Shown here in pieces: positions 15,727 through 16,639 of a DNA stretch of 40,486 nt. Origin of the DNA: an uncultured Pseudomonadota bacterium. GTDB lineage: Bacteria; Pseudomonadota; Alphaproteobacteria; RF32; CAG-239. The DNA is taken from contig CASEYY010000023.1 of the NCBI GenBank assembly GCA_949292335.1, forward strand, positions 1-40,486, read 5' to 3'. Under the pieces are notes generated by a model. That model saw only the letters and a list, made by a program, of their open reading frames with translations. It did not search any database and was not told the origin of the DNA. Every line of letters starts with the position of its first letter. Position 1 is the first letter of the stretch. Position numbers and translations under genes: made by a program.

Positions 15727-15736
15727 ATCATCAAAG

Positions 15737-15767
15737 AAAAGGAGCTTGAACAAAGCTCCTTTTTTTG
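15737..15767 (+). terminator. topA intrinsic terminator
   Basis: GGAGCTT and AAGCTCC form a 7-bp stem around GAACA, followed by seven Ts. It separates the topA operon from the structured RNA that follows. Confidence 0.9.
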
Positions 15768-15787
15768 AAAGATGATAAAAATATTCT

Positions 15788-15816
15788 TTGACTTTTGAGA
15801 GTTTTGATTTTAGGCT
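15788..15816 (+). promoter_or_regulatory. Promoter of the structured RNA / lipoprotein unit
   Basis: TTGACT (15788-15793), 17-nt spacer, TAGGCT (15811-15816). The predicted start near 15823 coincides with the first base-paired element. No other promoter is apparent between the topA terminator and the lipoprotein gene at 16061. Confidence 0.6.
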
Positions 15817-15822
15817 GAAGCC

Positions 15823-16028
15823 GAGTGTGGAAGAAAAAATTTTTCTTACACTTAAGGGCGTCGAAAACCCTTTTTGTACCATTAGTCGCGGCATTGCGAC
15901 TTAAAATAATGTGCCGATTTCTGCCTTAGGGCGGATGTCGGCGAATAAGGCTACGGCCGAATAAGCCGAGCCGTCCTGATGGTACACGGTTTTCGAACAT
16001 CCGCCCGCCTTTAAAAGCGGGTTTTTTT
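15823..16028 (+). ncRNA. Highly structured RNA of unknown family, possible attenuator/riboswitch
   Basis: About 206 nt between a promoter and an intrinsic terminator, with no credible ORF. Visible pairings are: hairpin 15824-15852 (AGTGT/ACACT plus AAGAAA/TTTCTT); stem A 15861-15869 with 15988-15996 (9 bp perfect); stem B 15876-15885 with 15976-15985 (10 bp, one G-U). Inside stem B are three arms: 15885-15889/15896-15900; 15913-15917/15938-15942 continuing as 15921-15925/15930-15934; and 15953-15957/15970-15974. The result is a four-way junction. A competing perfect 10-bp pairing joins GGGCGGATGT (15929-15938) to ACATCCGCCC (15997-16006), overlapping the terminator's 5' arm. The lipoprotein ATG follows 32 nt after the T-run. 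I do not recognise RNase P, SRP, tmRNA or 6S features. It could be a cis-acting leader or a free small RNA. Confidence 0.65.
16004..16028 (+). terminator. Terminator at the end of the structured RNA
   Basis: CCCGC (16004-16008) and GCGGG (16017-16021) with an 8-nt loop, followed by seven Ts. Its 5' arm shares bases 16004-16006 with the alternative 10-bp pairing, so termination could be conditional. Confidence 0.75.
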
Positions 16029-16060
16029 ATGACAAAATAAAATTTTAAGGGATAAAAAAG

Positions 16061-16639
16061 ATGAAGAAAACGGTGATACTTTCTTGTTTGATGCTTACTG
16101 CTTGCGGCACAATTTTCAGCGGAACAGGACAAGAAATTAATTTTGACAGCAACGAAAAAGGGGTAGAAGTTTTTATTGACGGAGTGAGAGCTTGTTCAAC
16201 GCCTTGCACCTATGAGGTTGACCGCAGTATAAGTGATTTGGATATTGTGGCTAAGAAAAAAGGTTTTAGAAATCAGCAAATTACTTTGCGATCAAACTTT
16301 AATAAAATGGCGGTTTTGAACCTGACATTTTTAACCAGCTGGACTACCGATTTGGCTTTTGGCGGAGTGTGGGAATACAAACGCAACAATGTCTATATTG
16401 ATATGGAAAAACTTTCAAGACAAAACGCATCTTTAGATAACGGCCTTGCACCTAAAATCAGACGATTTGCGTTGTTTGGCTTTGACGAGATGAAAATGGA
16501 GGCAGCAAAAAACACCAGCGGCGAATATATCAGCTCTTTGGCGGCAATAACCAAAAAAGATGACGTCGAACTGATTGCCCTTATTAACCAAACCTCAAGT
16601 GAAGTTGAGCTTGCTCATAAATTGACCGGAATTGATTAG
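16061..16639 (+). CDS. Putative lipoprotein with PEGA-like segment
   Basis: 192-residue exported lipoprotein. The signal peptide MKKTVILSCLMLTACG carries the lipobox LTAC, with Cys15 as the lipidated residue. A short beta-rich segment (about 30-65: GVEVFIDGVRACSTPCTYEV) resembles the PEGA-type fold seen in surface proteins, with two Cys that could pair. A hydrophobic WTTDLAFGGVWEY patch follows. The C-terminal third is helical and charged. AAGGGA precedes the ATG. The gene is preceded by the structured RNA and its terminator, so it may be controlled by attenuation, and it ends at its own terminator. The specific function is unknown. Confidence 0.8.
   Translation: MKKTVILSCLMLTACGTIFSGTGQEINFDSNEKGVEVFIDGVRACSTPCTYEVDRSISDLDIVAKKKGFRNQQITLRSNFNKMAVLNLTFLTSWTTDLAFGGVWEYKRNNVYIDMEKLSRQNASLDNGLAPKIRRFALFGFDEMKMEAAKNTSGEYISSLAAITKKDDVELIALINQTSSEVELAHKLTGID

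Follow-up and report, generated by a model that had tools for sequence, protein, structure and literature searches.

A diverged, longer relative of sRNA-Xcc1 upstream of surface-protein genes in gut Alphaproteobacteria and its possible antisense action on ribosome-binding sites

A structured RNA precedes a lipoprotein gene in the window, the 40,486-nucleotide stretch of DNA from an uncultured alphaproteobacterium that was analyzed here. The stems, terminal hairpin, alternative pairing, fold, and family membership confirmed that the RNA, at positions 15823–16028, is real. The explanation that we favor, and hold to be probable, is that it belongs to a family of ~200-nt antisense leader RNAs that resemble C4 and IsrK, are related to sRNA-Xcc1, and have been domesticated onto surface-protein genes.

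A folded RNA between topA and a lipoprotein gene

All features of the window locus lie on the forward strand. A hairpin with a T-run 3′ of topA (15736–15767, inverted repeat I1), likely the topA terminator judging by its sequence, sets the RNA locus apart from topA. The promoter that a preliminary description had placed behind it, TTGACT-17-TAGGCT (15788–15816), is identical in four of the five species having the window locus but is weak in itself, matching 8 of 12 consensus positions and being absent from the site list of the promoter scan; it is best regarded as a candidate. Across the genus, 8 of 43 copies carried a promoter site matching at least 10 of 12 positions, against 1.2 expected from mononucleotide shuffles.

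Downstream of a hairpin whose sequence differs among copies (15827–15851, inverted repeat I2), we found the two long nested stems of the preliminary description exactly where it had drawn them. P1 (15861–15869 with 15988–15996) is complementary at all nine positions, and P2 (15875–15885 with 15976–15986) at 10 of 11, with one G-U pair in the stretch 15876–15885/15976–15985. Both stems enclose a multi-arm interior that contains the P3 hairpin (GTCGC/GCGAC, 15885–15900; 97.8% of alignment cells paired) and a TCGGC element (15938–15942) with two conserved GCCGA partners, one upstream in P4 (15913–15917, 97.2% of cells paired) and an alternative one downstream (15965–15969, 99.4%) flanked by two GAATAA stretches. 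The strand GGGCGGATGT (15929–15938) is exactly complementary over 10 bp to 15997–16006, as had been claimed, and this alternative, pseudoknot-type pairing has three to four bases in common with the 5′ arm of the terminator hairpin. The 3′ strands of P2, P1, and the pseudoknot together form a 3′ arm (15976–16006), the putative antisense strand of the family in light of the partner-swapping tests in relatives described below.

The RNA ends in a terminator-like hairpin (16003–16022) followed by a T-run that extends to 16028. The terminator scan over 1.6 kb returned two sites versus 2.0 in shuffles, which is chance level, and is therefore no proof of a terminator on its own; the conservation of the hairpin and T-run in the copy alignment weighs more. 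Beyond it lie the ribosome-binding site (RBS) AAGGGA (16047–16052), which lacks the GGATGTT of sibling genes, and a gene for a 192-aa lipoprotein with a PEGA domain (16061–16639; open reading frame (ORF) and domain search). Since the T-run and the lipoprotein ATG are only ~32 nt apart, a second promoter in that gap is unlikely, in line with the earlier remark that the only promoter seen for the gene lies upstream of the RNA; transcription of the gene seems to start at the RNA's own promoter and to read through.

Two checks that the preliminary description had recommended, a minimum free-energy fold and a search for compensatory stem changes among relatives, both came out in favor of the RNA. 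The region 15823–16028 folds at −89.2 kcal/mol (z −8.2), a value equaled by none of 200 shuffles. A DNA search revealed matches in 29 of 58 relatives and at four places in the genome of origin, including the window, and yielded no relative when blastn was run against a plasmid collection. R1, a model built from 36 genus copies, had matches at E 0.001 in 33 of the genus's 36 genomes, and in 30 of the 36 a match exceeded 100 bits. The window's own genome contained 13 R1 matches, 11 of which were read as sequence (C24 and C42 left out) and all 11 of which showed the same architecture by eye; matches below ~30 bits were counted as copies only if the sequence had been read (L348–L352). In the 36 copies, double-sided changes occurred in four of the nine P1 pairs and in all eight counted P2 pairs. 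Overall, 92.9% of cells pair, compared with 83.6% in shuffles (0/500 as high) and 26.5–43.0% when the pairing was slid. The pseudoknot, paired in 89.6% of cells over eight pairs, showed no double-sided change; because it is nearly invariant in the genus, covariation there speaks neither for nor against it. Moreover, the 10-bp pairing that is perfect in the window is not a rule of the family, as 28 of the 36 copies carry an A-C mismatch inside it.

The genes behind the genus copies mostly look exported: 24 of 33 proteins have exported-like starts by eye. Pfam searches of these 33 proteins identified PEGA domains (8), autotransporter domains (4), and PMP repeats (3), together with single cases of an outer-membrane barrel, an EcoRI-type methylase, TM2, glycosyltransferases, and a phage tail collar domain. 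Four more divergent copies (L348, L349, L351, and L353) precede helix-turn-helix proteins. At one locus (L039:5287–7196), two RNA copies lie 1.7 kb apart in a single genome, with an adenine methylase gene of the EcoRI type and a neighbor gene of the DUF4417 type behind them. A genus-type copy also occurs before an 890-aa adhesin-like ORF on an unannotated fecal scaffold labeled “Bacteriophage sp.” (L069, MT836653.1, 577–731), which may be bacterial DNA.

Relation to sRNA-Xcc1 and to phage antirepressor loci

The preliminary description had recognized no known family, and at Rfam gathering scores the whole window indeed contains none, riboswitch families included; it also contains no tRNA and no tmRNA. 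Searched alone, however, the region has a recognizable relative: RF02221 (sRNA-Xcc1) aligned to 15929–16014 over model positions 1–87 of 87 with 43.5 bits (E 1.4e-6), short of the gathering score of 53 bits. The outer stem of sRNA-Xcc1 corresponds to the pseudoknot pairing of the window RNA, and the inner arms are aligned as well. In the class, RF02221 matched 27 of 190 genomes, three of them above the cut-off, and in the phylum 58 of 398, with 39 above it; in each survey, none of 14 controls matched. A 1.4-Mb alphaproteobacterial genome (G127, in which L051 is one copy) contained 13 RF02221 matches on several contigs, two of them over the cut-off.

A pattern scan for the RF02221 core recovered at least 120 stretches of viral contigs, and reading 80 of these yielded 70 distinct copies. 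In 60 of the viral copies, the ones used in the 5′-arm test, and in 41 copies from the class and phylum, the sequence upstream of the Rfam match contains a strand that is complementary to the 3′ arm. The 5′ arms matched their own 3′ arms far better than swapped ones (z 14.5 for viral and 16.9 for class and phylum copies; 0/5000), and at least 10 paired bases in two blocks joined the arms in 53/60 and 38/41 copies, respectively. Judged by complementarity, then, sRNA-Xcc1 members have a counterpart of the 5′ arm of P1 and P2 upstream of the Rfam match, and this suggests that the RF02221 model covers the 3′ half of a longer structure. In the opposite direction, R1 recovered just 3 of the 23 viral and 2 of the 30 phylum loci presented to it (E 6.7e-5 to 8.4e-3), as well as 5 of 19 class loci; a clearly spurious antisense match at E 4.3e-5 means that R1 E-values are rough. 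This weak recovery of viral and phylum loci counts against a simple merger with RF02221, and on the sequence evidence we regard the window RNA as a diverged, longer relative of sRNA-Xcc1.

The window RNA, at ~200 nt with a terminator-like end, differs from sRNA-Xcc1 as published, an RNA of 88 nt by RACE that was also seen by northern blotting (PMC2996969). An 88-nt RNA fits the 3′ half of the longer structure, in which case the 5′ half would be removed. In the literature, sRNA-Xcc1 is discussed as a trans-acting, virulence-linked small RNA, and its family is recorded in genomes of Xanthomonas, Xylella, Haemophilus, and Aeromonas. At locus L084 (24–1193 and 1501–1584), twenty CRISPR-DR4 repeats lie directly 5′ of an sRNA-Xcc1 copy.

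Pfam searches of 60 proteins whose genes follow viral copies identified Bro-N (13), KilA-N (12), AntA (11), P22_AR_N (7), Phage_pRha (7), and ORF6N (6) domains, with multiple domains per protein possible. Three annotated phages carry a gene labeled antirepressor or KilA-N behind the RNA. Elsewhere, a SymE toxin-family gene directly follows a proteobacterial sRNA-Xcc1 copy (L070:1501–1836), and CTCACAG in its RBS region is complementary to CTGTGAG of the RNA; SymE behind sRNA-Xcc1 is also described for Xanthomonas integron cassettes (PMC12444791).

This setting recalls known antisense RNAs of phages. The c4 RNA is described as preceding an antirepressor gene and being complementary to the ant RBS region (PMC12197685). 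The c4 RNA of phages P1 and P7 (RF01695) and c4-2 (RF02944) share this placement and RBS complementarity with phage copies of the window family but differ from the family in structure and length; RF01695 had no match up to E 10 in 15727–16100, and c4 had none at gathering score in 20 relative loci. The c4-like trait of complementarity to the RBS behind was seen in viral copies, class and phylum copies, and most genus copies, but not for the window's own gene. At locus L079 (2890–2958), a sub-threshold c4-2 match (34.8 bits, cut-off 41) lies ~1.3 kb from an sRNA-Xcc1 copy, as if one prophage held two antirepressor-control RNAs. IsrK of Gifsy-1 precedes the antirepressor gene anrP, can adopt alternative structures, and is expressed from one promoter both as a short, terminated form and as an mRNA made by read-through; its short form activates translation, unlike the repression proposed for the window family (PMC4825925). 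The IsrK Rfam model had no match up to E 10 in the window RNA region. The sar RNA of phage P22, which we set beside the window family by description, is summarized in the review cited for c4 as a small RNA of 68/69 nt that pairs with ant mRNA and lowers antirepressor synthesis (PMC12197685).

Complementarity between the RNA and the ribosome-binding site behind it

On our reading of viral and proteobacterial loci, the gene's RBS looks like the 5′ arm of the RNA, which gives the 3′ arm two possible partners. In 50 of the 70 viral copies, namely those with distinct arms and an ORF start within 75 nt, the two-block exact complement between the RNA and its own RBS averaged 12.7, versus 7.8 for swapped partners (z 14.9, 0/5000). 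The 32 of 41 class and phylum loci where a start could be assigned gave 11.4 versus 7.0 (z 10.1, 0/5000); in both sets, related loci are not independent. Class loci L052, L054, L058, L061–L064, and L067 were left out of the class and phylum RBS tests. Across all 41 class and phylum loci with starts not assigned, duplex energy gave a z of −7.6 (0/20000), although just 12 of the 41 reached p 0.05 when each locus was compared with shuffles of the DNA downstream of it.

The genus uses a shifted register, in which the RBS AAGGATGTT has its complement in AACATCC, part of the 3′ strand of the pseudoknot, which is conserved as AACATCCGCCC in 40 of 45 genus copies. GGATGT occurs at the RBS of 21 of 32 ORFs preceded by the RNA and of none of 208 other ORFs in genus loci (Fisher 1.7e-22, a value that is too small because orthologues were included). 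A search of the window's own genome for AAGGATGTTN0-8ATG gave six sites, of which three follow RNA copies and three lie in what appears by eye to be coding DNA. In the main genus set (42 of 45 copies), own partners were no better than swapped ones (z 1.2 to 1.8); this is expected, since the seed and the RBS are common to the copies, which also means that the set is not independent proof. In two divergent copies, C44 (CAACTTCC/GGAAGTTG) and L023 (GCATCC/GGATGC), the RBS has changed along with the RNA. Across 21 divergent genus copies, which were hand-chosen and in part mutually paralogous, own partners prevailed by duplex energy (z 5.1, 0/10000) and by the two-block score (27/10000), though at L355, L356, L358, and L360 the RNA–RBS match spans only 4–5 nt.

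These data bear on the possibility of a free-standing small RNA that acts in trans on targets elsewhere, with its placement before the lipoprotein gene being incidental. Such an RNA would be in keeping with the RACE and northern results for sRNA-Xcc1, with the RNA's own promoter and terminator-like end, and with a window gene that lacks an RBS match while the seed is common to sibling genes. However, the matching RBS is absent from all 208 ORFs without the RNA, and copies repeatedly sit directly before genes; we consider this alternative improbable. A transposon guide RNA (omega or bridge RNA) was considered because of the copy number and was dropped, as the RBS relation accounts for the position of the copies.

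The window copy and a proposed mechanism

The window gene is at most a putative target, as it has no clear RBS match: in the window and its four orthologues (five species in all), the longest exact complement to the RNA through the ATG is 4 nt. An imperfect duplex over the start codon and first codons (−25.4 kcal/mol) does exceed shuffles (p 0.0055), but 33 of 208 unrelated gene starts equal it, and the two-block score of the window is equaled by 19 of 206 other gene starts and by 2 of 51 among ATGAA starts. A specific antisense site at this gene is therefore not proposed.

A missing RBS match in all five species would also suit an inactive relic of a duplicated module. Against this, between the window and L004, an orthologous locus of 86% identity, three P2 pairs have changed on both sides and still pair, with P1 unchanged, and a relic seems to us very improbable. 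Because its stems are preserved by compensation, the window RNA probably works at its locus; possible modes of action are termination, contact with the start region, and contact with sibling genes that have the common seed.

Termination is central to another alternative, a transcription attenuator or riboswitch in which a ligand or protein selects among the pseudoknot, the inner arms, and the terminator. Expression of the gene would then depend on read-through, and complementarity to the RBS would be of secondary importance. The competing pairings, with TCGGC and its two equally conserved partners and a pseudoknot strand that overlaps the terminator, fit this idea, as do the terminator-like end conserved in genus copies and the window copy without an RBS match. 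Nevertheless, the overlap with the terminator is just three to four bases, several phage copies lack a T-run after the hairpin by eye, the downstream genes share no obvious common pathway, and a pure ligand switch does not predict locus-specific RNA–RBS matching. Taken together, these points make an attenuator or riboswitch unlikely, though less so than the other alternatives. The preliminary description, which had proposed a cis-acting attenuator or riboswitch or else a pseudoknotted small RNA, came close; the partner tests favor antisense control of the RBS over a ligand riboswitch, and the terminator may have some role besides antisense control.

Under antisense control of the RBS, the folded RNA would hold the 3′ arm by means of its own 5′ arm (P1/P2) and the pseudoknot strand, and the gene would stay on as long as the 3′ arm is bound. 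Once freed in a terminated, processed, or refolded RNA, the 3′ arm could base-pair at the RBS of the downstream gene and prevent its translation, the terminated RNA thus acting on the read-through mRNA. In phages, each RNA is matched to its adjoining antirepressor-type gene. In the genus, where the family precedes surface lipoproteins, autotransporters, and helix-turn-helix regulators, most copies have a single seed in common, AACATCC against GGATGTT.

A fuller version of this model, which we offer tentatively as a possibility that falls somewhat short of even odds, holds that what is known as sRNA-Xcc1 represents the 3′ half of a self-mimicking phage switch of ~200 nt. The 3′ arm of this switch would pair either with its own 5′ arm or with the copy of that arm at the antirepressor RBS. 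Gut alphaproteobacteria would have domesticated the switch into a one-seed regulon with many copies, composed of surface lipoproteins and autotransporters; the window copy carries the seed but is followed by no matching RBS, and it may act on sibling genes. We found no account of a full-length sRNA-Xcc1-type RNA or of its RBS pairing in the passages of the open-access literature that were retrieved. Our results suggest that a viral on/off control was borrowed by a gut bacterium. If so, they would provide the sRNA-Xcc1 family with a mechanism tied to phage antirepressor control and would reveal that such a module has spread across the surface-protein genes of gut bacteria.
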